Shown here: positions 8,107 through 61,497 of the stretch, in pieces | How positions within the stretch are numbered: the stretch's first letter is position 1 | Layout of the letters: every line of letters starts with the position of its first letter | From: a virus | Virus record (IMG/VR): IMGVR_UViG_3300030104_001836 | Span: 1 to 61,497 of that record | Strand: one strand, 5' to 3' | Length of the DNA stretch: 61,497 bases | Position numbers and translations under genes: made by a program | The notes under the pieces: generated by a model | Database searches by the model: none | What the model saw: the letters and a program-made list of their open reading frames with translations, nothing else | Told to the model about the DNA's origin: nothing

Positions 8107-11100
8107 CTAGTCTACCAGTTGAGAAAAATCTAAACCATAGTATTTTTCTAATGCTTTAATTTGATCAATAATTTCTAGTCTTTGTGTTTTAGGTGCTAAT
8201 TTTAAATCTTTGTCTATTTGACTAAAAAATGAATCTTTAATCATTCTTTTAATACCAGTCCTACTAATTTCTATACCATTTTTAATAGCTTCTTCTATAA
8301 TAAATGTAAGTGCAACATTAAGATTTTCATAATCATCACCATATTTACGAACAGCAATGTTAATATTAGTTCTAACATCTTCTAAACTTTTAAGTTTTTT
8401 TTCTTTATTAGAACGAATATTTTGCGTTAAATCATTAAATTGTGCAACCTTTGTAGGTTCAAAACCAAATGTCATTCTAAATACATCACTTAATGTTAAT
8501 TCATATTTAATACTTTGATTTTTATAAGGGTTTGTATACACAGGTTTTTGATCACCTTGTAATGTTTCAGCCATTTTATTTGTAAATAATTCTGTATCTG
8601 TAGCTATTGTAATAAGAGGCATACCACCAGCCATAGCTTCTATAGATTTTAAAGGTTTAAATGCTGGAGATAAATTAACTAAATGATCTACAGCAGTAGC
8701 TCCTTCTTGTTTTAGTTTACTAGATGTAATTAATGTATTAACAAAAGGCCCATAAAAATCTGAAATTTCTGATGGTAAAAATTTATCACCAAATCCAACT
8801 CTATTTGTTAAGTTAATACCTACACCTGTGCCACCTTCAGATATAATTGCTGGAGCACCATGAGTAATAAATTGACCAACCATTCCATTTAAATTTCCTT
8901 TAGCACTTTCATTAATTGCCCATTCTTTTAAATCTTCATCTGGTTCGTATTCTCCACCAGTAAACAATGATATAAGTTGACTTAATAACATATATGCTGG
9001 ATGACCTAATGCACCAGCTAATACAAATGTAGATGCTAAAAATCTAGGAATTTCTGCACCTCGTAAACCAGATATAAATACTAACTCTTGTATAAACCAG
9101 TTTTTAAATTGTAATGGCACACGCAAAAATGTATTTCTAAGCACACCGGGTTTAGCCGCATTATCATAACTAAATTGTTGTTGTTGTATTGCAAACAATC
9201 CAGATTTAATTGCTTGTTCTCTATTTTTTCCTTGTTTTTCTGCTTTAATGTATCCAGCAAAAAATGATGTAGCTCGGTTTAAAGACTCTGCACTTTGAAA
9301 CCATAACATAGATAGTTGACCAAGTTTTGATTGCTCTGTAAATATGTCTGGTGCTCTGTCAGAATAAAAATATGAAGATTTAATTTCTGCTTTTTGTGCA
9401 AGTAATAAAGCATCCATTGCCGCATTAACTTTACTAGCACTATAATTTTTTCTATTTTCTATAATTTCTCTGTAATCATTTCTAGCTAATCTATACAAAG
9501 CAGGAGTAGCTCTTCTAAATCCAGCAGATGTAAGAACAGCACCCATTTTACTATAAGTGTTTAAACCTATTTGTGATAAGTTAACAAGAGCAGATGATAA
9601 ATTAAAGAAAGCTCCAAGTTTTAAATGAGCAGACAAAGATAACATATCGCCTGTAATGGCACGACTTTTTCTTTGTGTTTTACCCATTGATCTTGCCATC
9701 ATTATGGATGTTGCACCACCAATAACAAGAGGAGCAACTGGGCCACCTATAATAAATGGTGTTGCAATAGCACCTATACCTGCCGCATAAAATACTTTTT
9801 TAGGAACAGATTTTTCTAAAGTGTTTAATGCATTGTCTACACTTCTTTCTAAACTTTGAGGGTTATTATTTAAATCACTCCACCAACTTCTTAAATAACT
9901 AGCTATTGGTTCAGCATCACCAGATACTTCACTAACTTCACCCCAACCTTTACGTTCCATAAGGTTTACATAATCATACTTTAATTCATCCATGTAAACA
10001 TACTTAGAAACAGAACCAGCAAATGTTCTAAATACTTTGTCTAAGTTTTTATCATATCCAGCAACACCTCTTCTTTTTAAAGAAAACTCTGGTATTCTTC
10101 TTCTGTTTTTTCTTTTCATTACATCTTTGATATTACCTCGTAACTCTTCAGCAGTGTATTTTTCTGATAAATTTTCAGTTAAAGAGTTCATAATTGATCT
10201 GTATTCTTGATCATTTAATACAGTAGCATCGTTAGAATATATTTGTAAATCAGTAGGTTCAACACGAATTACATCTGTAGGATTATTTTTTATGTGTTCT
10301 TGTGCCGCTTTTATTGCATCTTCTTTACTACTAAAAAATAAAGTATTTTTACTAGATTCAACAGCACTTGCTATTGATTCTATTTCTGCATCAGTTCTGC
10401 CTTGGGCTTTCAATCCTTCTATAGCTTGTTGGCTTAATTGAGGAGTAATTAAATTTTCATATATTTCATTGTTATTTTCATCTACCTCTTTTAAAACTTT
10501 TAATTTAAAATTACCAAAAAATTTATGTGGTACATAACCAACTTTTCTTCTTACAGATGTGCTTTGTAATTTATTTTCTTCAATGTAATATTTTTGATAA
10601 GCATTAATAAAAGAATTAAATGTTGTAGGTGACGTATTAATTAATGGTATACTATAAATTCTTTCATCTATTTCTAATAATTCAGCTAATTGCGTTTGTG
10701 GATTACCAATACCATTTCTTATTTGTCGCATTTTATTAGATCGTTGTACCATTAATCTTTTAAAGTCAGATAAAGAATCTGGACTAATTAAACTATTTAA
10801 ACGAGTTCGTATTAATGCTTGTGCCGATCTTACTTTAGGCAACATACTTCTTCTGTGTTGATCTATATATTTACCAATTTTATCAAATAACAATCTAATT
10901 TCTTTGTACATTGCTATTTCATTGTTACTAAACTTAACAGATTTAATTTTATTTATTTCATTAGTGCTAAATCCTTGACTTCTTAAATCTGCTATTTCTT
11001 GTTTAGTTAAAGTAAAACCTTCTTGTAATTCTTTATCAGTAAATACTTTTTGTGATGCATCACCAACAAACAATATATCAACAACTTTAGAAAATTGTGA

Positions 11101-14100
11101 TCCTTTATATTTAGTTCTAATATTTTTGTATCTATCAATAAAAGTTTTAGATCGTACTCGTATTTTAGATTCATACTCTATTGCTTTTTGAATTAACTTG
11201 GCTATTGATTTATCTTTTAATTGATTAGCAGTAACATAAGTTGGTAAAATATATTTTAAAAGAATTGTAAAACTTGGAAGAATACCTTCTTTAGTTGTTT
11301 TAGATAAGGTTTCTTCTGGTATATGTATTCTATCTGTAGATGATCTATCTTTATCAATAAATGGATCAATTCTTTTTTTGTTTTTTATAATCTTAAACAA
11401 TGAAGTAAGGGTATTCCTTGACCTTTTTATAACATTATCTTTAGTATTATTTTCATTCATGTCTGGAGGAGTAGCCATTGCACCAACTGATCTTGGTGTA
11501 GGGTCTCCTTCATTCTGTAAAATAACTTTTTCTTTAGATTCTTTTGCTATTTCTCTTTCTTTAATAGTTTGAAAGTTAATTCCATTTTCTGCATAATAAG
11601 GTAAAACATAATTTTCTAATACATCTAATTTAGTTGTAGCAGACCATGTTCTACCATCAGATGACTTTTTAAAATCTAAGTCAACCATGCTTTCACTACT
11701 CTTATCTAATCCTCTTTCTATTAAATCTTTTCTTGTAGTAAATACAGTTGCACTATCTCCTCCTGTTTTTTGTATACGCACATCTCCACTATAGGTTTTT
11801 AATTCACCAAATTTACTATTGTAAAGATATGACGTTGCCGCTTGGTAATCAAGCAGAACAGGAATACTAGCTTCTTCTTTTTCATGTTTATAGTTTTTAG
11901 GCATAACAATAGTTTGTATTATTGTACCATCGTTTCTTTGTAGTTTAGCAACTTGACCACCTTTAACAATAGCTGATCCAGTTAACAAATTGCCTGTAAC
12001 AATATACCTTGTTTCTCTTACATTTTCTTGACCAGATACAAACAATTGATCAATTGATTTTCCTTCCGGTGTTGTTGATGCATTTTCAATTCTATTTTCA
12101 GATGATAAATTTCCTTGGTTATCAATAAATCTTGATAAACCTAATGTAATTTTTTGTGCATCACCTTGTGCTAAAGCTATTTTAATTTTAAAACTACCAG
12201 TATTTGTAGCTGTAGATGTTCCTTCATGTTTTCTATCAAGAATAATACCATGTTCAACTATAGCGTTATCTTTTCCTGTGTTTAAAGAAATCCTTACTTG
12301 TGTTCCTACAGGAAAACTTTTTATATTTCTTGTTATTTGATTTTTAACATCTTGTAATTTTTTAACTTGTGATTGTATTTGTGCTGGTTTTTTTGTTGTG
12401 TCTTGACGAATTTTTTCTATAGCAGTATCATATATTTCAACAGCTTGATTTAATTGTTTTTCATTATATTCATCAACTTTTTCTTGAACATTTTTTGTAT
12501 TTAATTCTACATTTTCTGTAGTTAAATCTAAAGTAGTTCTTAATTCTTTTTGTAATTGTAAAGGTGTTAAAGGTTTAGTTTTTTTATTAATAGATACTTG
12601 TTCCATGTAAACTGGTTGTTGAAATATAGTTCCAGTTGTTGAACCATCTTGTATCATATCTACTTCACCAATAGATATTGCATCTGCTTTAGTTAGATTA
12701 GCCATATCTAATGTGTTAGTTCCAAATGCTGTTTCTTCTTCTTTTAACTCTACATATCTTTTTGCAACAAAATCATAATATTCAGTAGCTAATGCTGGAT
12801 CAAATATTAATAAACTACTAGAAACTTTATTAGCAATACCATCTATTTTTCCTGTTAAATCTATATCTAATACATCTCTAATTTCTGCATGAGATTCTAA
12901 AAATTCTTTTGTAACATTATCTCCTAAAGTATTAAAGAAATCTAAAGAGTCCGATGTAGTGTAAACTGAGTCTTGACCACCAGTAACAGTAGCATTTAAT
13001 GATGCCATTTTTTTTGCTAACATAGAAGATAGTCTTTGTTCTGCTGGATGATCAGTTGTCATTATAGTATACTTAGGAAGACTTACTTGTCCTGTTCTAA
13101 ATATACGACCTAACATTTGTAGGTAAGTATTAATTTCTGGTTCAGCTTCTAAGACAATCATGTGTCTTTGTTTTTTATCTTTAGCTCTTTGATCAGAATG
13201 CATAGAGTAACCAGTAGATGCACTTTGATTTATAACTAATACATCTAAGTCACCATTTTGAAAACTATCTATTCTTCTTCTTTTTTTAATAGAGGAGTCA
13301 CCTCTTGGTGTTATAATACCCTTTGAATCTATAGCGTATTGTCTACCTGTAATTTCTCCTACTTTAATATTAGAATTTCGTAAATTGTTAATAATATTAT
13401 CTACTGGATTTAAAGTTAAATTACCAAAATCAGTATCTCTTATTCTACCTTTTAATTCTTCAATTTGTTCTACTAAATTACCTTCACCAAATTCATTAAC
13501 TTCTTCATTAGTTAATTTTTTTCTTGCAGTATAAATAGGAACATCTGCTTTTGGTACTTTAACAGACATAGAATATTCTAAAGCACGATCTAGATACTTT
13601 AATAATAAATCATTATAAGTAAGTGTAATTCTATCACCAGCTTTTAAACTTTTATCTGCCATTATTTGACGAAGTAAATTTTCACCTGTTCGTGAAACTG
13701 TAATAACAACTTTTCTTTGATTGTTTTTTACTTCATTGTTTGCATAATTAACAGCATCGTTTACTTTAAAACTTGTCATTAACATTGTAGAAATATTGTA
13801 CATTTGTGATTTAAAATCACTAGGAACAACTCTACCTTGTAAACCTGTTTTTGCTTGTGCAGATGCAAAATCTGGATCAGAAGATGCAATTTTTTTAGCT
13901 ATGTCAGATAATTGCATATCAATTAAATGTATGTCTAAAAATAAATCAGAAATTTGTTTTGCTAATTCTTTATCGTGTACAACACCTTTTCCATCATTGT
14001 AAACACTATACTCTACACCATCAAAACTTCTTTCAACACGTCTATATTGACCTGTTTGTGCTAACATATTAGTTACAATTTGTTGTAAAGGAATACCTCT

Positions 14101-17100
14101 TGTTTGCATAACATCAACAAATTGATCAGAATCTGGTATAGATTCTTGTATATCTGTATTCATATACAAATCCATAACAACAGGATTTTTAGCCCATGTT
14201 GCAGAAGAAAATACTGCACCTCTAGAATTATTTAAAGCGTGTCTAATAAAAGTAGCACGAGTATTTATTTTGTCAGCTTTTACTTTTCTATTAGAACTAC
14301 CACCAGCGTTGTGACTTTCATCTAAAATAAATATAGCATTTGGTGCAATTGATTCTATAAAATTATGTCTAGCTTTATTAATAGGAGTTTTAAAACCTTG
14401 TTCATCTGCTTTTGAATCTCTATTTAATTGATAATAAGTTGTAAAAATATAATCATAATTATTTTCTAACATACCTTGATCACTAGATAACTTATTTAAT
14501 AAAGCCTCATGTTTTTCTCTTGTTTCAGTTTTAAAACCTTCTTCATTAAGAGAACTTAAATCTACAGTATGATTATTGTCAGTAGGTAATATTTTCATAT
14601 TAGATACATCTTCGCCAATATCTTTCATATCACGAATCATATCAGTATATAAACCAGATTTATGTGTAACAAAAACAACGTGTTGAGCATTTTTCTTTGC
14701 ATATCGCATAAGTGCGGCTACAACTCTACCTTTACCTATTCCTGTTTGATCACCTAAAACAAATCCTTTGTTTGCTTTTAATTGATCAATAGCTAAACCT
14801 AATGCTTCTATTTGTTCTGAACCAAATTTATCATTTACTTCATCTAAACTCATATCTAAATTATCAGCAACATATTGTTTAATGTCACCAACACGAACAT
14901 CTAAGTTACGCAATCCTTTACCAGAAGATGCTAATAACTCTATTGGCATATGAGTGTCTAAAGAATTACCTTTTACTTTAGGATTATATTTAGTTTGAAA
15001 TAATGTATTTCTTTCACCTTGAACATTTTTATATTCAGATTGTATATCTGTAGCAAAACGAACAAATGCACCCATAGATGTTTTCCATTGTTCACTATTA
15101 CTTCTAGCTTCGTTTTTTTGTTCTGGTGTTAAAGAAGTATCAATAAATGATCTGTCAATATCATTAATTAATGATTTCATTGCACTTTGAAAAGGCAATC
15201 CAGCTTTACTATGTTGATCTAATCTTTTTAATAATTGAGGTTTTACTTTATCATATGATTCTTTTGTAGGTTTTATAGTAGGAACACCAAATATTTCTGC
15301 TCCATATTCTACTTGTCCTACACCAGAATCTGGAGTAGCAGAAGCTCCTGCATCCTCTGGAGGTGTTATTCTAGATTTTAAATCATTTAAACTACTAGCA
15401 AAATCATCAAAATCTTCTTCAAGTTTTTCTTGATGATATCTATTTATGTTAGGTGATAACTCTGGATATTTATTTTTTGTTGTGTCATATATTTGTTGTA
15501 ATAACTCTTGTTGATCTTCCATTGTATCAATAAGAGTTTCCTCAATATCATTTTGTAAATAGCTTGGTATTTTAGTTTTTTTAAATCCTTGTAAAGTAGT
15601 AGCATCATAATCTAAATATACTTCTTCAAAAATGTCATAATCATATGTAAAAACATCTTTAATAATTTGTTTATCGTTATTATTTAATCCTTCTATCTTT
15701 CCGATGTCACTGGCGAGGCTTCGTTCAGCCACGACATTATCGTGCTTTCGTTGAGCGTTGTCTCGTAATTCTTGTTGGGTTTCAGTTGTATCGGGAACTG
15801 AACTTGATTCAATTCCTGTGACAGTATCTCCCAACTGTCCAGACACATTTCCAGTAATGTTGTCCCCAACGATCCTTCCTTCAACTTCGTTTCTAGATTG
15901 AACATCCTGTCCCTCGATGGGATCAACAGATTCATCCTCTCTTCTAGGTCTTCCTCGTTCTCCGCTAGTATCTGGAGTCGGTTTGCTAACAGATGTAGGT
16001 ACTCCTCGTACCCCAGTTGTAACTCGTTCTGATGACCCACTAACGTCAGTATCGGGTTGCTCTCTACTGCCCAGAACGCTTTCGCCTCTTTCAACGTCAG
16101 TAATGTCGGTAATTGTTTCAGTGTCTCGCTCACTCACTTCCTCCTTTTGTTCTGCGAACTCCGGTAGGGGAGGAGTCTCTGGTGGTTTTTTATCATAGTT
16201 TTTATTTTTAATATACTTAATTGCATCTTTTATTGGTTTTACCTTAATTTCTTTGGTTTTTTTTCTAATTAATTTACCAGTTGCTTCTTCTTTAATGTCT
16301 AAAGTTGCTTTATTTATTTCATTTATTAAAATTTGAAAATCATTTGGATTACTAGGATTAGTTTGATTTACTAAATATAATCTATCTAATCTATTAGTAT
16401 TTGTAAGTTCATTAACTCTTTGTGCATATGCACTTTCTACATCTTGTAAATATTTTTTACCTGCTACGGATGGATCTATAATTTCTCTTCTATATGCATC
16501 TATAGCATTATAATATTGATTTAGTTTTGTTAATGGTGATCTAGGATCATATAATTTAAATATACCTTGACCATAAGTTATATCGTCTTCTTTTTTTTGT
16601 ACAGCTTGTTCTCTTTGAGTTACTTTATCTTCTACTACAGGTGTTTCTTTTGTAACTGCATCAGTATCTTCTAATGTAGATAGAAAACCAGCCATTTCAT
16701 CTTCTGTTAAAACATTTTTTTCTTCTTCTTTTTTAACAGGCTCAACAGGTGTAGTAGTAGGTTCAGCAAATATTTTTTCAGCCGTAGTTAAAGGTTTTTC
16801 CTCAACAACAGGTGCAACAGCTTCTGGTGTAGTCTCTTCTACTACAGGAGTTTCTTTTACTACAGGAGTAGGTTGTTCTACTGGTCTACCTTCTAATTCA
16901 GCTATTCTTTTATTAATAGCATCAAAGTTTTTTTGTACTGTTTTGTTTTCTAATTTGCCTTGTTCTATATATCTAGATGTAACTTTTAATGCAGATAAAT
17001 TATTTTCTTGAGATAATAAATTATCTAATGGTAATTGTGTTAGTTCATCTTTAAGAGTTTCATTGTCACTTGCAATGGCTTTACCCATTTGTCTATTCCA

Positions 17101-18969
17101 ACCATTGTCACCTGTAATAGAATCTACTTTAATTTTAGGTGTAGGTGTTGGCTTACCTTTTTCAAATTGTTCTCTTTTTTTTGTAAGTTCTTCTAATCCT
17201 TCTTCTAAACCAGTTTTAATTTCGCCTTGCTCATCTCTAATAAGATCATCTTTAGGTAATTGTTTTTGTAAAGATTCTATTTGTGTATCTAATTTTTCTA
17301 TTTTTGGTTTATTAATTTCTTTTTGTTCTTCTGAAAAAAAAGGATTGTCTAAACTTGTTTTTTGTAAAGTTAAATCTGTAATTTCTTTTTGTATGTCTAA
17401 TGCACTTTTATCTGTTTTATCTACAACTTCTTCTTCTACAACACTTTCTTCTATATCATCTCTTGATTGAAATTGTGGTTTACCTTCTTCAAGATTTTTT
17501 TGTTGCATTTCTTCATATGCATCAACTTTAGTTTTAGTTTCTGGTTTATCTAACCAATCTATTTTTAAATCTCTATCTAAAGGTTCTTCAACAATACCAC
17601 CATCATCTAGTTCAACTCTTATGTTTTTACTTGTAGACCCATCATCATTAAGAACAACAGGATATTCTACAACACGACCTTTTCCTATAGGTTCACCAGA
17701 TTTAGTTAATACAATGTTATTAGAACCAACAGGAGGATATCCATCTGGAGAACTATCTGGTGCTACTTCATCTGGTGTTCCAACTTCAGTTGCTTCTTGA
17801 GTTGCTTTTTCTGTATCACCCTCAATAGTTTCAGAACCATCATCTTCTAAAATAGTTTTTTCATCTACTTTATCTTCTAGTTTTTCTTTTCTTTGTACAC
17901 CACCACTTATGCCACCAAATACAAGACCAGCTACAAATCCCGGCCCAAATTGTTCACCTGCATAATCAAATGTTTCTCTTTCTTTATTGTATGTTTGTTC
18001 TATTAAATTTTGTAAAACATTTTGAAATTCTTCTGTTCCACCTTCCCATACACCTTGAGTAACTGATTGTTTAAGTATATTAGCAATTCTACTTTTTACT
18101 CCCGGAACAACTTTATTAAAACGATTTAATAATATTTGAACAGGTAAATAATCAGCAGAACCCGGAGCAACACCAAGTATAGTTGCCATAACAACATCAG
18201 TTTCATCAGTGTCACCATCAAAAGCATATACACGATCTACAGATTCGCCACCTTCCATTGCTATTGCAGTTCCAAGACCAGCTACAGTTCCAACACCAAA
18301 TGGAGCACCAACAACTGAAGCACCTATAATAGGAATAGTGCTACCAATACCTTCAAAACCTTTGTATATTGTATCTGCTAATTTATTATCTTTCCATCGT
18401 TGATCTTGCGGAAATGTTTCTTGTGCAAATTGTTGTAATTCTTCACCAGCTTTAAAAAACTCTGACTCTTTAGCAGAATATTGATTTCTATATGTGTCAA
18501 CTATTTGTTCTGCTCTATCAACAATTTCTGGACTATATTGATCTTTTTCATTTAATATACTAAGAGCGGCTCTATATTGTGCAGTTACTTCCTGTAAATC
18601 ACCAGAAAAATAATCTGGCATTTTTTCAAGACCAGCACCATATTTAAGACCAGAACCTACAGCTTGTATTGTACCAGCAGGTATTGCAGATGTAATTAAA
18701 TCTGCACCAAATTCTGGAAGAGTAGTTAAACCAAATGGTTTTTCTTCTTTAGGTTCTTCTTCTATTGTTTCGGGGGAGGGTTGTACAGACGTTCCTGTAA
18801 GTCTAGATGTGTCAAATGCATTTGTATCTGTGGTAAGAAATTCAGTAAATAATCTTTTATCTGGATATCTATCTTGATATTGACTGTATAACTCGTTTAT
18901 TAAATCTTCATCACTATATAGTAAAAAATTTCTATTATCTTCACGAGCAAGTTCTAAAGGTGTTGGCAT
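8107..18969 (-). CDS. Giant polyvalent protein with Strawberry-notch-type helicase core (DarB-like, possible injected protein)
   Basis: A 3,620-residue protein, about 18% of the genome. Residues about 200-245 and 340-360 are Gly/Ala-rich hydrophobic segments. About 370-1130 is acidic, Pro/Thr-rich linker. The helicase core follows: QTGIGKGR (Walker A, 1408-1415), DESH (1550-1553), the SSAT segment, and motif VI QMLGRIFRTGQV (1951-1962), the arrangement seen in Strawberry-notch/DarB-like phage proteins. The C-terminal third holds helical domains like large polyvalent protein domains, with hydrophobic stretches at about 3057-3092 and 3307-3337. Location beside internal virion proteins suggests packaging and injection, perhaps for antirestriction. 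AAAGGA precedes the ATG by 7 nt. Injection is inference; the helicase call is firm. Confidence 0.8.
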   Translation of the reverse strand: MPTPLELAREDNRNFLLYSDEDLINELYSQYQDRYPDKRLFTEFLTTDTNAFDTSRLTGTSVQPSPETIEEEPKEEKPFGLTTLPEFGADLITSAIPAGTIQAVGSGLKYGAGLEKMPDYFSGDLQEVTAQYRAALSILNEKDQYSPEIVDRAEQIVDTYRNQYSAKESEFFKAGEELQQFAQETFPQDQRWKDNKLADTIYKGFEGIGSTIPIIGASVVGAPFGVGTVAGLGTAIAMEGGESVDRVYAFDGDTDETDVVMATILGVAPGSADYLPVQILLNRFNKVVPGVKSRIANILKQSVTQGVWEGGTEEFQNVLQNLIEQTYNKERETFDYAGEQFGPGFVAGLVFGGISGGVQRKEKLEDKVDEKTILEDDGSETIEGDTEKATQEATEVGTPDEVAPDSSPDGYPPVGSNNIVLTKSGEPIGKGRVVEYPVVLNDDGSTSKNIRVELDDGGIVEEPLDRDLKIDWLDKPETKTKVDAYEEMQQKNLEEGKPQFQSRDDIEESVVEEEVVDKTDKSALDIQKEITDLTLQKTSLDNPFFSEEQKEINKPKIEKLDTQIESLQKQLPKDDLIRDEQGEIKTGLEEGLEELTKKREQFEKGKPTPTPKIKVDSITGDNGWNRQMGKAIASDNETLKDELTQLPLDNLLSQENNLSALKVTSRYIEQGKLENKTVQKNFDAINKRIAELEGRPVEQPTPVVKETPVVEETTPEAVAPVVEEKPLTTAEKIFAEPTTTPVEPVKKEEEKNVLTEDEMAGFLSTLEDTDAVTKETPVVEDKVTQREQAVQKKEDDITYGQGIFKLYDPRSPLTKLNQYYNAIDAYRREIIDPSVAGKKYLQDVESAYAQRVNELTNTNRLDRLYLVNQTNPSNPNDFQILINEINKATLDIKEEATGKLIRKKTKEIKVKPIKDAIKYIKNKNYDKKPPETPPLPEFAEQKEEVSERDTETITDITDVERGESVLGSREQPDTDVSGSSERVTTGVRGVPTSVSKPTPDTSGERGRPRREDESVDPIEGQDVQSRNEVEGRIVGDNITGNVSGQLGDTVTGIESSSVPDTTETQQELRDNAQRKHDNVVAERSLASDIGKIEGLNNNDKQIIKDVFTYDYDIFEEVYLDYDATTLQGFKKTKIPSYLQNDIEETLIDTMEDQQELLQQIYDTTKNKYPELSPNINRYHQEKLEEDFDDFASSLNDLKSRITPPEDAGASATPDSGVGQVEYGAEIFGVPTIKPTKESYDKVKPQLLKRLDQHSKAGLPFQSAMKSLINDIDRSFIDTSLTPEQKNEARSNSEQWKTSMGAFVRFATDIQSEYKNVQGERNTLFQTKYNPKVKGNSLDTHMPIELLASSGKGLRNLDVRVGDIKQYVADNLDMSLDEVNDKFGSEQIEALGLAIDQLKANKGFVLGDQTGIGKGRVVAALMRYAKKNAQHVVFVTHKSGLYTDMIRDMKDIGEDVSNMKILPTDNNHTVDLSSLNEEGFKTETREKHEALLNKLSSDQGMLENNYDYIFTTYYQLNRDSKADEQGFKTPINKARHNFIESIAPNAIFILDESHNAGGSSNRKVKADKINTRATFIRHALNNSRGAVFSSATWAKNPVVMDLYMNTDIQESIPDSDQFVDVMQTRGIPLQQIVTNMLAQTGQYRRVERSFDGVEYSVYNDGKGVVHDKELAKQISDLFLDIHLIDMQLSDIAKKIASSDPDFASAQAKTGLQGRVVPSDFKSQMYNISTMLMTSFKVNDAVNYANNEVKNNQRKVVITVSRTGENLLRQIMADKSLKAGDRITLTYNDLLLKYLDRALEYSMSVKVPKADVPIYTARKKLTNEEVNEFGEGNLVEQIEELKGRIRDTDFGNLTLNPVDNIINNLRNSNIKVGEITGRQYAIDSKGIITPRGDSSIKKRRRIDSFQNGDLDVLVINQSASTGYSMHSDQRAKDKKQRHMIVLEAEPEINTYLQMLGRIFRTGQVSLPKYTIMTTDHPAEQRLSSMLAKKMASLNATVTGGQDSVYTTSDSLDFFNTLGDNVTKEFLESHAEIRDVLDIDLTGKIDGIANKVSSSLLIFDPALATEYYDFVAKRYVELKEEETAFGTNTLDMANLTKADAISIGEVDMIQDGSTTGTIFQQPVYMEQVSINKKTKPLTPLQLQKELRTTLDLTTENVELNTKNVQEKVDEYNEKQLNQAVEIYDTAIEKIRQDTTKKPAQIQSQVKKLQDVKNQITRNIKSFPVGTQVRISLNTGKDNAIVEHGIILDRKHEGTSTATNTGSFKIKIALAQGDAQKITLGLSRFIDNQGNLSSENRIENASTTPEGKSIDQLFVSGQENVRETRYIVTGNLLTGSAIVKGGQVAKLQRNDGTIIQTIVMPKNYKHEKEEASIPVLLDYQAATSYLYNSKFGELKTYSGDVRIQKTGGDSATVFTTRKDLIERGLDKSSESMVDLDFKKSSDGRTWSATTKLDVLENYVLPYYAENGINFQTIKEREIAKESKEKVILQNEGDPTPRSVGAMATPPDMNENNTKDNVIKRSRNTLTSLFKIIKNKKRIDPFIDKDRSSTDRIHIPEETLSKTTKEGILPSFTILLKYILPTYVTANQLKDKSIAKLIQKAIEYESKIRVRSKTFIDRYKNIRTKYKGSQFSKVVDILFVGDASQKVFTDKELQEGFTLTKQEIADLRSQGFSTNEINKIKSVKFSNNEIAMYKEIRLLFDKIGKYIDQHRRSMLPKVRSAQALIRTRLNSLISPDSLSDFKRLMVQRSNKMRQIRNGIGNPQTQLAELLEIDERIYSIPLINTSPTTFNSFINAYQKYYIEENKLQSTSVRRKVGYVPHKFFGNFKLKVLKEVDENNNEIYENLITPQLSQQAIEGLKAQGRTDAEIESIASAVESSKNTLFFSSKEDAIKAAQEHIKNNPTDVIRVEPTDLQIYSNDATVLNDQEYRSIMNSLTENLSEKYTAEELRGNIKDVMKRKNRRRIPEFSLKRRGVAGYDKNLDKVFRTFAGSVSKYVYMDELKYDYVNLMERKGWGEVSEVSGDAEPIASYLRSWWSDLNNNPQSLERSVDNALNTLEKSVPKKVFYAAGIGAIATPFIIGGPVAPLVIGGATSIMMARSMGKTQRKSRAITGDMLSLSAHLKLGAFFNLSSALVNLSQIGLNTYSKMGAVLTSAGFRRATPALYRLARNDYREIIENRKNYSASKVNAAMDALLLAQKAEIKSSYFYSDRAPDIFTEQSKLGQLSMLWFQSAESLNRATSFFAGYIKAEKQGKNREQAIKSGLFAIQQQQFSYDNAAKPGVLRNTFLRVPLQFKNWFIQELVFISGLRGAEIPRFLASTFVLAGALGHPAYMLLSQLISLFTGGEYEPDEDLKEWAINESAKGNLNGMVGQFITHGAPAIISEGGTGVGINLTNRVGFGDKFLPSEISDFYGPFVNTLITSSKLKQEGATAVDHLVNLSPAFKPLKSIEAMAGGMPLITIATDTELFTNKMAETLQGDQKPVYTNPYKNQSIKYELTLSDVFRMTFGFEPTKVAQFNDLTQNIRSNKEKKLKSLEDVRTNINIAVRKYGDDYENLNVALTFIIEEAIKNGIEISRTGIKRMIKDSFFSQIDKDLKLAPKTQRLEIIDQIKALEKYYGLDFSQLVD
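15693..16133 (-). CDS. Candidate overlapping gene nested in the giant gene (146 codons, GTG start)
   Basis: A same-strand alternative frame inside the linker-coding part of the giant gene. It starts at GTG 16131-16133, preceded by a perfect AGGAGG (16140-16145) with a 6-nt spacer. The product would be leucine-rich and mostly helical (LKQLPTLLTLKEAKAFWAVE, EEYLHLLANRLQILAENEED) with no membrane segment, while the host frame is disordered here. Local GC is visibly higher than in the surroundings. No host codon of the form NTA before A or G occurs among about twenty opportunities, which keeps this frame open. Leucine richness can arise from a shadow frame, so confidence is moderate. Confidence 0.45.
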   Translation of the reverse strand: MSETLKQLPTLLTLKEAKAFWAVESNPILTLVGHQNELQLGYEEYLHLLANRLQILAENEEDLEERMNLLIPSRDRMFNLETKLKEGSLGTTLLEMCLDSWEILSQELNQVQFPIQLKPNKNYETTLNESTIMSWLNEASPVTSER

Positions 18970-58831: not shown

Positions 58832-59694
58832 CAAATTTTAATGATCCATTAGTTTTTAAAAGATTTAACATTAACCATTTGTCACCTTCACACATAGGAG
58901 AATTTGTTACTATGAAATCTATGTGGGTTATGAAAAGAGGTTTTAATTATAGTGATGGAATAGCACCACACATGATAAGAGGTGAGGCAATAGGAAAAGG
59001 TTTAGCTTATTTTTTAAACTCTAAGCCTAACAATATTGATGATGTTGTTGAATTTGTTGAGCAATATTATGATGCTAGATATTTAGACACTAGAGAGTCA
59101 GTAGAAAGATCGGATGAAATACAAAATGTAAGACTTACACTTAGACCAATAACAAAATGTGGTGTGGATGCACTAAATGGTATTGGTAATTTTGTTAAAT
59201 CAGAAAGAAAATTAGAATTAGAAGTTTCAAAACTTTTTAATGATGAGAGATTTCCAAATTTAATTGCTTATACTGATTTTACTTTTGCTGAAGATAAAGG
59301 TAATGAATTTACTGTTGAATTAAAGTGTCCTACAAAAAAAACTGATTTAAAATATAGACATTTGTTCCAAGGTTTTACAGCTTATCATTATGGACAAGTT
59401 AATCTTAATCCAATTAATGATAGTAGAATATTATTTTTATTACCTAGAAAATCTACTGATAGAAAAACAAAAAAAGTAACACATAGTGCAGAACCAGATG
59501 TGCATTATTTAAAAGATTATGTTGATCAATTTCATTATCAAAATGAATTAAAAGGAGTTTACAATTCTATGATGAACATATTAACGCAATGCCAAACGTG
59601 GCATGACGTTGCCAAACTTTGCCCTCCAAATCCAGACGATTGGTATTGGAATAAAGAGAGCATAAAAATGAGGAGAGAAATATGGGGGATATAA
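58828..59694 (+). CDS. RecB/Cas4-like PD-(D/E)XK exonuclease
   Basis: A 288-residue protein. HLSPSHIGEF near the start and RGEAIGKGLA (51-60) match RecB-family motifs. IAYTDFTF gives D150, VELKCPTK gives E164-x-K166, the D...ExK active site. LFQGFTAYHYGQ (179-190) is the QxxxY-like motif. C-terminal PPNPDDWYW. Likely a dsDNA or ssDNA exonuclease that works with the ERF protein encoded next, as lambda Exo works with Beta. Overlaps the next gene by 13 bp. Confidence 0.8.
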   Translation: MTNFNDPLVFKRFNINHLSPSHIGEFVTMKSMWVMKRGFNYSDGIAPHMIRGEAIGKGLAYFLNSKPNNIDDVVEFVEQYYDARYLDTRESVERSDEIQNVRLTLRPITKCGVDALNGIGNFVKSERKLELEVSKLFNDERFPNLIAYTDFTFAEDKGNEFTVELKCPTKKTDLKYRHLFQGFTAYHYGQVNLNPINDSRILFLLPRKSTDRKTKKVTHSAEPDVHYLKDYVDQFHYQNELKGVYNSMMNILTQCQTWHDVAKLCPPNPDDWYWNKESIKMRREIWGI

Positions 59695-60413
59695 TTGAAA
59701 CTAAGGTAATACCTGTCCCAGAGGAAAATATGTTACCATCTCTTGCACCTATTCCTAAAGAAATTGCAAGAGCGTTAAATTATGTGTGTAAAAATTCTGT
59801 TAAATTAAGCAATGCACATAAGAACGAATACCATAATTATAATTTTGCTAGTATTGATGATTTCTTAGAGGTTTATGGAAGTATTATTGCTGAAGCTGGA
59901 TTAACAATTATTATGGATGAGGTAGAAGAAAAACAAAACGATAAAGTTTTAAAAATAGTTTATCATTTTATTTTAATCCATGAAAGTGGTTCTATGTGGC
60001 AACATCCTATTAAAAGAAGTATTCGTGTTAATTCTTCTGCTGGATCACAAGCATACGGACAAGCACAAAGTTATTGTCTAAAACAATTTTTACGAGGTGT
60101 GTTTATGATACCAACAGGTGAGAGTAAACATATGAAAGCTGAAGTAGAAACTGATTTAGACTACAGCAAACAAGAAAAACTTAATATGAATAAAGCTAAG
60201 TTTGACAATGCTAATGGTAGTAGCAATGTTATTAAACCTAAATTTCATGTTGATGTTGTTAATGATATTGAAGATGAACTATCTAAATGTAAATCTGATG
60301 GTGATATTGATAATGTTTTTAATAAAAATAAAGAAACGATAAATGGTTTGTCGGATAGAAACAAAAAAACTTTAGAGGCATCCTTTAAAGCAATGAGGGC
60401 TACAGTATTATGA
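59682..60413 (+). CDS. ERF-family single-strand annealing protein
   Basis: A 243-residue protein. The core (IARALNYVCKNSVKLSNAHK, YHNYNFASIDDFLEVYGSI, AEAGLTIIMDEVEE, LIHESGSMWQHPI, SAGSQAYGQAQSYCLKQFLR) follows the ERF family order, including the GS/AQ...Y segment. These proteins anneal single strands during recombination and genome circularisation. The C-terminal third is a separate charged domain. It overlaps the SSB-like gene by 4 bp (ATGA). Confidence 0.8.
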   Translation: MGDIIETKVIPVPEENMLPSLAPIPKEIARALNYVCKNSVKLSNAHKNEYHNYNFASIDDFLEVYGSIIAEAGLTIIMDEVEEKQNDKVLKIVYHFILIHESGSMWQHPIKRSIRVNSSAGSQAYGQAQSYCLKQFLRGVFMIPTGESKHMKAEVETDLDYSKQEKLNMNKAKFDNANGSSNVIKPKFHVDVVNDIEDELSKCKSDGDIDNVFNKNKETINGLSDRNKKTLEASFKAMRATVL

Positions 60414-60655
60414 GTAAAGCAGAATTTTATATAAATAAAAATCAATATAAAACAGAGGATAAACATCCTTCGTATGTTAATAAAAAGGTTGTTATTTCAG
60501 AACCATTACCAGCAGGAACATATTCAGTTGCCGCATGGGGTGGTAAAAATCAATATGGCCCATACATAAAATTAACTTTGGAAGCCAAAGAAGATATACC
60601 ACAACCAGCACCTATACAAAATAATGATAATCTTGAAGAAGACATTCCATTTTGA
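60410..60655 (+). CDS. Small SSB-like protein with DIPF acidic tail
   Basis: An 81-residue protein with a short OB-fold-like beta region (KKVVISEPLPAGTYSVAAWG, YGPYIKLTLEAKED) and a flexible end LEEDIPF, the acidic tip by which bacterial SSB proteins recruit partners. At about half the usual SSB length it would be a minimal single-strand binding protein. It lies directly after ERF, a common pairing. Confidence 0.65.
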   Translation: MSKAEFYINKNQYKTEDKHPSYVNKKVVISEPLPAGTYSVAAWGGKNQYGPYIKLTLEAKEDIPQPAPIQNNDNLEEDIPF

Positions 60656-61128
60656 GAAGTGATGAACCTAGGTATAGATCAGAAAAACATTTACGAAAGA
60701 TTGCAAGTGAACCCTGTTTGGTTTGTGGAAGAAAAGATGTACAAGCACATCATCTTACTCTTTCACAGCCACAGGCAATGTCTCTTAAAGTTGGAGACCA
60801 GTTTACTATTCCTTTATGTGTTTTTCATCATTCAGAATTACATAGAATTACTGAAAAAAAATTTTGGGAAACACATAAGGAGATAGACCCATATGCCAGA
60901 GCAAAAAGATATTGGAATGCCCATGAAGGAGGATTGGGAGATATTACAATTCGATCCCAACAAAATAGTTCAAAGACAAAGAGAGTTAGGAAAAGATTGG
61001 GTAGAAAAACAAGCGTATTACGAGGAGCTAATAGACTTAAAGAAACCAACGAGAGACGACAACGCCTCAACATATCTCAATGGGGGAAAAGGAATTGGGG
61101 AAAGCGAGATGAGGGGAAACGCAAGTAA
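60652..61128 (+). CDS. HNH-like (DUF968-type) protein with overlapping basic tail
   Basis: A 158-residue protein. Residues 1-80 contain EPCLVCGRKDVQAHHLTLSQ, then GDQFTIPLCVFHHSELHRIT and KKFWETH, the CxxC...HH...CxxHH zinc/HNH pattern of DUF968-like nucleases. Starts at TTG, overlapping the SSB stop. From residue 81 the sequence is Arg/Lys-rich (SKTKRVRKRLGRKTSVLRGA) and encoded across the next gene in another frame (236 bp shared). All eight pyrimidine-ending codons of that gene before AA or GA end in C inside the overlap, which keeps this frame open. Confidence 0.7.
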   Translation: MRSDEPRYRSEKHLRKIASEPCLVCGRKDVQAHHLTLSQPQAMSLKVGDQFTIPLCVFHHSELHRITEKKFWETHKEIDPYARAKRYWNAHEGGLGDITIRSQQNSSKTKRVRKRLGRKTSVLRGANRLKETNERRQRLNISQWGKRNWGKRDEGKRK

Positions 61129-61282
61129 TAAGTATAGAGATTTTCTTGCTAAGTTAAGTAAAGCAAGAAAAGAAGCTATGTTAGCTAAAGTTGATTATGA
61201 TTCATTTTGTAATTGGGTACAGCTTTTACGATCTAAAGGTGCAAATTTAAGAACAGAAATGCAATTAGCAAATATAACATGA
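60893..61282 (+). CDS. Conserved phage protein, helical
   Basis: A 129-residue protein. N-terminal half charged (KEDWEILQFDPNKIVQRQRE), C-terminal half a conserved helical block (NKYRDFLAKLSKARKEAMLA, KVDYDSFCNWVQLLRSKGAN, LRTEMQLANIT). Similar blocks occur in marine phage proteins of unknown function. The first 236 bp overlap the HNH-like gene in the same strand; codon usage returns to T-ending immediately after that overlap ends. Confidence 0.7.
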   Translation: MPEQKDIGMPMKEDWEILQFDPNKIVQRQRELGKDWVEKQAYYEELIDLKKPTRDDNASTYLNGGKGIGESEMRGNASNKYRDFLAKLSKARKEAMLAKVDYDSFCNWVQLLRSKGANLRTEMQLANIT

Positions 61283-61300
61283 TAAAGAAGGGTAAAGAAA

Positions 61301-61408
61301 ATGGATTGGGAAAAAGTATTGGAGACAGTATCACTGGTTGTAGTGGTTGCATTTATATTTGTGATGTTTTTAGGAATGTCTTTAGCAATATTAGGAGGAT
61401 TCTTATAA
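61301..61408 (+). CDS. 35-residue membrane peptide at the circular junction
   Basis: MDWEKVLETVSLVVVVAFIF then VMFLGMSLAILGGFL: one long hydrophobic helix. GAAGGG lies about 7 nt before the ATG. Its end contains AGGAGG, the ribosome-binding site of the DnaA-like gene that starts two bases later (61410 = 12). The last nine bases belong to the terminal repeat. Confidence 0.6.
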   Translation: MDWEKVLETVSLVVVVAFIFVMFLGMSLAILGGFL

Positions 61409-61497
61409 TATGAATAAAGAAGTAGAAGCAATAATTAAAACTGTTTGTGAAGAAACAAACATAACCTTTGTTGAGTTGTGTAGTAAAAGGAGGTCTG
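61400..61497. repeat. Right copy of the 98-bp terminal direct repeat
   Basis: Identical to bases 2-99. It contains the last nine bases of the membrane-peptide gene and the first 88 bases of the DnaA-like gene, so that gene appears twice (complete at 12-329, truncated at 61410-61497). Coding resumes across the join without a frame break, which supports a circular map. Confidence 0.9.

Follow-up and report, generated by a model that had tools for sequence, protein, structure and literature searches.

Same-strand gene overlaps are reported to be short as a rule in virus genomes, where those of the +1 phase have a median length of 14 nt with an interquartile range of 8-26 (PMC8903798), and a prokaryotic survey left out overlaps of more than 59 bp as likely misannotations. 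Elongation of the upstream gene at its 3' end is given as the commoner origin of overlaps by the simulation in that survey (PMC3887535), and overprinting and disorder have been reviewed together (PMC8227390). As far as the proteins are concerned, the DUF968 domain has been linked to Erf, Rad52 and RusA (PMC4118853), and an HNH sequence has been described out of frame inside a phage methylase (PMC11855218).

The overlap analyzed here is of an already known kind and is unusually long. It is found in a virus record of 61,497 bases, the whole of which is referred to as the window (W), where an HNH-like gene and the gene downstream of it share 236 nt. The frame of the downstream gene is +1 relative to the HNH frame; the phase is named after PMC8903798, because the phases as worded in PMC3887535 conflict with the ATGA example given there. 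A literature search, covering titles and the beginnings of abstracts, returned no paper on this gene pair, a scope by which absence is not proven. Same-strand overlaps of this length are often thrown out as annotation errors, and the overlap rules of gene callers could shorten or drop either gene. The reading favoured here, as a full account and with a probability of about 80%, is that the dual-coding terminal overlap is genuine, the nuclease-like protein carrying an overprinted C-terminal tail which selection keeps open.

Gene order and family placement

Near the right end of the window, a set of plus-strand genes begins with one for an ERF-type single-strand annealing protein (59682-60413; PF04404, E=8.8e-13; phrog_155, E=3.7e-20) and continues with a small 81-aa gene (60410-60655), related to DUF736 and ending in EEDIPF. 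The HNH/DUF968-like gene (60652-61128, 158 aa) follows, from a TTG at 60652 to a TAA at 61126-61128; its start and the stop of the EEDIPF gene share the bases TTGA, a junction identical in all six phages, that is, the window and five close relatives, labelled L001-L005. The last gene of the set (60893-61282, 129 aa) runs from an ATG at 60893 to a TGA at 61280-61282, has no Pfam or PHROG match, and is predicted with low confidence to encode a mostly helical protein. The HNH gene is composed of a core read in a single frame (60652-60892, 80 codons plus one base), which holds the notable family matches and the predicted ordered elements, these extending to residue 90, and of the dual-coding overlap (60893-61128), which encodes both the HNH tail, approximately residues 81-158, and the first 78 residues of its downstream neighbour. 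The extent of the overlap and the two frames had been correctly assigned in the initial annotation.

The DUF736 match of the small protein is found only in the copies from L002 (E=4e-4) and L003 (E=1.3e-4), where it is weak; the window copy produced no such match at E<=0.1. A DIPF C-terminus resembles the tails of bacterial SSB proteins, and the product of 60410-60655 may be a mini SSB-like protein. On the other side of the overlap pair, the DNA 3' of it (61283-61497 in the window) differs among W/L001, L003/L004 and L005, and the pair may for this reason sit at a module border. A long minus-strand ORF of the window (8107-18969, 3620 aa) has a single PHROG match, which is weak (phrog_37402, E=6.8e-5).

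The HNH protein matches PF06147 at residues 5-74, with E=1.1e-12 and 48.8 bits against a curated cut-off of 27.8 (57.7 bits in L005 and 42.2 in L003), and phrog_96, HNH endonuclease, with E=2.1e-13. Only positions 84-151 of the 171 in the PF06147 profile are covered, corresponding to its C-terminal HNH part; since position 84 aligns already at residue 5 of the protein, the Orf-like N-terminal DNA-binding domain is absent, and by its sequence the gene is an HNH-only form, filed as DUF968-like, and not a full DUF968/Orf protein. Residues C22, C25, H33, H34, C56, H59 and H60 are invariant in the six phages, and presumably have the roles of the Cys and His residues of the HNH motif. The protein is most likely nuclease-like and part of an ERF-type recombination module. 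Searches against solved structures returned nothing useful, and Foldseek, used with a low-confidence model of the HNH protein, gave no match at E<=0.001; several of its low-scoring matches are HNH nucleases. A plasmid search matched the HNH part only.

Stop avoidance in the overlap

Pyrimidine-ending codons of the downstream frame are at risk when followed by AA, AG or GA, as a final T would then produce a stop in the HNH frame. Within the overlap all eight such codons end in C, and at harmless positions C is found in 5 and T in 10 of 15 pyrimidine-ending codons, a recount in agreement with the eight C-ending and ten T-ending codons originally counted. T-ending at-risk codons had also been said to reappear after the HNH stop, and indeed none of the eight found 3' of the overlap ends in C, but AGT-AA, one of the examples given, is the HNH stop itself (61126-61128). 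Over 20 window genes, T occupies 1604 of 1828 at-risk pyrimidine codons; in the overlaps of the six phages every one of them, at 13 distinct codon positions, has C. In the window, the downstream frame has a third-position GC of 0.43 within the overlap and of 0.10 beyond it, compared to 0.14 for window genes.

The role of chance was evaluated by resampling synonymous codons for the downstream protein, 50,000 times per phage. The codon usage of each phage was used, because L003 has a higher third-position GC, for which the window usage is unsuitable. The HNH-frame stops expected under this procedure are 10.0 for W, 10.5 for L001, 9.2 for L002, 8.5 for L003, 9.7 for L004 and 9.1 for L005, and none of the 50,000 resamplings was open in any of the six phages. 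When the codons of the window downstream gene were shuffled among themselves, a fraction of 5e-5 remained open. Read in the corresponding phase, the 20 other window genes have stop-free runs of at most 57 codons, versus 78 in the overlap. Past the overlap, over 52-55 codons, the HNH frame contains 10 stops in W, L001 and L005, 6 in L002 and L004, and 5 in L003, counts which include the HNH stop itself and which, for L002, end with the contig. A chance open frame is rejected, being contradicted by resampling, shuffling and codon counts alike. The avoidance of stops is well established in every lineage, and the results support the conclusion that the downstream protein alone does not account for the open HNH frame.

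Possible constraint on the tail among close relatives

HNH relatives were found in 51 viral loci, five of which (L001-L005) are 68-95% identical over the query. W groups with L001, and L002 with L004, for a total of four lineages. The tail is present in all five, within proteins of 155-158 aa, and the frame is open across the whole overlap; stops soon after residue 80, for which the initial annotation had proposed to inspect related phages, are found in none of them. The downstream gene is complete in four of the five (the L002 contig ends inside it), with overlaps of 227-242 nt, the larger figure counting an extra upstream ATG in L005.

Synonymous change of the downstream gene was counted among codons for the same residue, in the overlap versus after it: 5/50 vs 13/27 for W-L005, 9/50 vs 14/32 for W-L004, 15/42 vs 18/30 for W-L003, 16/44 vs 15/30 for L003-L004, 17/41 vs 16/25 for L003-L005 and 13/48 vs 16/28 for L004-L005. 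The comparison of overlap sites with no stop risk to all those after gave 4/39 vs 8/21 for W-L005 (p=0.014) and 4/36 vs 10/28 for W-L004 (p=0.020), with p=0.026 for W-L003, 0.083 for L004-L005, 0.21 for L003-L005 and 0.30 for L003-L004. The pairs are not independent, two disjoint ones being W-L005 and L003-L004; the lowered synonymous change is clear for W-L005 and W-L004, and not significant for L003-L004.

Tail differences were also compared with a simulation in which the downstream residues were fixed, synonymous change occurred at the post-overlap rate and stops were barred. Fewer differences than expected were observed in three of six pairs: 19 vs 33-35 for W-L005, 23 vs 33-35 for W-L004 and 27 vs 37-39 for L004-L005. 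For the pairs with L003, observed values (36 vs 36-38 with L004, 38 vs 38-41 with W, 42 vs 42-43 with L005) gave no sign that the tail residues are constrained further than by the need to stay open. An overlap-aware ratio was obtained by a simple OLGenie-like count, using as controls five regions of the same phages with a mock second frame. The NN/NS of the tail frame, 1.10-2.54, lies within the control range of 0.78-3.42; the NN/SN of the downstream frame is 0.55 for L003-L004 (95% interval 0.34-0.85) and 1.33 for W-L005 (0.66-3.66).

All together, the alignments support a constraint on tail amino acids among W, L004 and L005, not against L003, and local recombination could partly add to the similarity of the former three. 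The proposal that selection keeps the tail is in part supported, by a frame open beyond chance and in 5 of 5 relatives, and has a mixed signal at the level of residues. The overlap-aware ratio suggested with it, NN/NS, remains within controls, and the W, L004 and L005 tails differ less than simulated; variation due to the downstream frame alone, the outcome named as contrary, fits the L003 pairs but not stop avoidance or the W, L004 and L005 pairs.

The HNH frame might be open for reasons of translation, such as the passage of ribosomes over the downstream start or protection of the message, with a tail devoid of function. The downstream ATG is kept in all six phages, and the Shine-Dalgarno-like AAGGAGAT which precedes it (60877-60884, plus strand, within the HNH core) has good counterparts in L001, L002 and L004; L005 has a weaker one and L003 none, which makes two of six phages and speaks for this explanation, as does the L003 tail, whose sequence drifts while the frame stays open. 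Against it stand the constraint on residues seen among W, L004 and L005 and the near-identical end point of the tail throughout the phages; to our knowledge it has no precedent, and we consider it unlikely, although it fares better than the others.

A conserved DNA or RNA element, for example a recombination site or a regulatory structure, could limit change in place of a second protein, and 38 alignment columns (60926-60963, alignment A5) are in fact identical in W, L001, L002, L004 and L005, L003 being the one that differs. Such an element would not leave 78 codons without stops, the divergent L003 included, and an RNA element is rejected on a weak RNAalifold consensus, whose covariation term is unfavourable (-14.33 + 0.5 kcal/mol), and on the lack of any Rfam match, which makes this alternative very improbable. 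That the downstream gene alone codes in the overlap, the open HNH frame being a chance result of its residues and biased codon usage, agrees with NN/NS values not below those of the control regions and with L003 differences as expected once stops are barred, but is hardly credible in view of the resamplings and of C at every at-risk codon, where T dominates elsewhere.

The basic composition of the tail does not contribute to the argument. Its net charge is +15 to +19 in W and L002-L005, and the mean over stop-free synonymous versions is +24 to +26 under window usage, +18 to +20 when GC-ending codons are given extra weight and +10 to +13 under even usage. As the simulated stop-free versions exceed the real tails in mean basicity when phage codon usage is applied, the composition is largely a consequence of the reading phase, and the argument that Arg/Lys richness denotes a selected nucleic-acid-binding tail was dropped. 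AlphaFold2, run on six HNH sequences, produced a poor model (mean pLDDT 56.5), with a core ordered to about residue 90 and a tail helix at 126-138; the model of the downstream protein is also poor (mean pLDDT 58.4).

Origin of the tail and comparison with known systems

Among the 46 more distant HNH loci, 25 were read and none has this tail, their HNH ORFs measuring 93-136 aa from the start of the match. Homologues of the downstream protein were identified in the same five contigs and in four distant ones (L061, L080-L082); in the three of these whose context was read, L061, L080 and L082, no DUF968-type gene lies over the start of the homologue. By hhalign, the downstream-protein alignment A2 matches the L061 protein (96.3%, E=1.5e-9) at window residues 15-120, spanning most of the overlap-coded part, and by this homology the N-terminus of the downstream protein is real. 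It might instead be supposed that the HNH frame alone codes up to 61128, the downstream gene starting later, for example at ATG 61109, with 72 spurious N-terminal residues, as the C-ending codons of its frame, atypical for the phage, could suggest; this is rejected as extremely unlikely, given the alignment to L061, which has no such overlap, the context and conservation of ATG 60893, and the downstream NN/SN of L003-L004, though not that of W-L005.

Planktothrix phage Pra-JY27 has a DUF968-like ORF of 97 residues behind an ORF with a DIPF end; the ORF downstream of it is a different one, and the overlap between the two is only 34 nt long. Since downstream homologues occur without the overlap, and the other DUF968-like proteins read are without the tail, the simplest and most likely history is that the downstream gene is the older one, and that the HNH gene lost its stop and ran into it. 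Different small ORFs, HNH-looking by eye, are found at L061:1908-2186, L080:2378-2656 and L082:2175-2444, each some hundreds of bases 5' of the homologue of the downstream gene, which may be a sign that HNH genes are swapped at such loci. A search with the tail alone retrieved only the five relatives and L079, where the match, within a long ORF containing repeated motifs, was judged by eye to be due to chance. The 50,697 phage records searched contained no tail homologue, and genome contigs queried with A1 and A2 yielded no relative.

According to the favoured account, the stop that originally ended the HNH protein near residue 90 would have been lost, and the HNH gene would then have been extended, in the other frame, through the first 78 codons of its older neighbour. 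Selection against stops has since then kept the tail open in four lineages, as the codon statistics show. The HNH protein would be read from its TTG, past the start of the neighbour, to 61128, and other ribosomes would start at ATG 60893 for the downstream protein; in L003 and L005, translational coupling to HNH translation perhaps aids this start. The tail is probably basic and for the most part disordered, with a single helix and a sequence under loose constraint. A possible contribution of the tail to the nuclease, by contact with DNA or a partner in the recombination to which the gene neighbourhood points, is the weakest step. A further idea, speculative and rather doubtful, is that the de novo tail is now required by the nuclease-like protein, perhaps through contacts with DNA or with the helical protein that these bases also encode, in such a way that two interacting partners would evolve under one shared sequence.

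A clear statistical signature, relatives that have the overlap as well as others that lack it, and a direction of birth that can be inferred combine to make the locus a tractable case of a tail born by overprinting. Compared to same-strand overlaps by 3' elongation, as presented in PMC3887535, PMC8903798 and PMC8227390, it shares the 3' end of an upstream gene within the 5' end of a downstream one, the +1 shift, a new tail on the upstream gene and stop avoidance, and differs by its length, 236 nt against the median in PMC8903798. With the DUF968/Orf-family proteins of PMC4118853 it has in common the HNH part of DUF968 and the neighbourhood of an annealing protein, but it is without the Orf-like N-terminal part and has the extra overprinted tail. 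As in the phage methylase of PMC11855218, an HNH gene and another phage gene use common bases in different frames; there a whole mobile HNH was inserted, whereas in the window the overlap is limited to the tail and no sign of mobility was seen.
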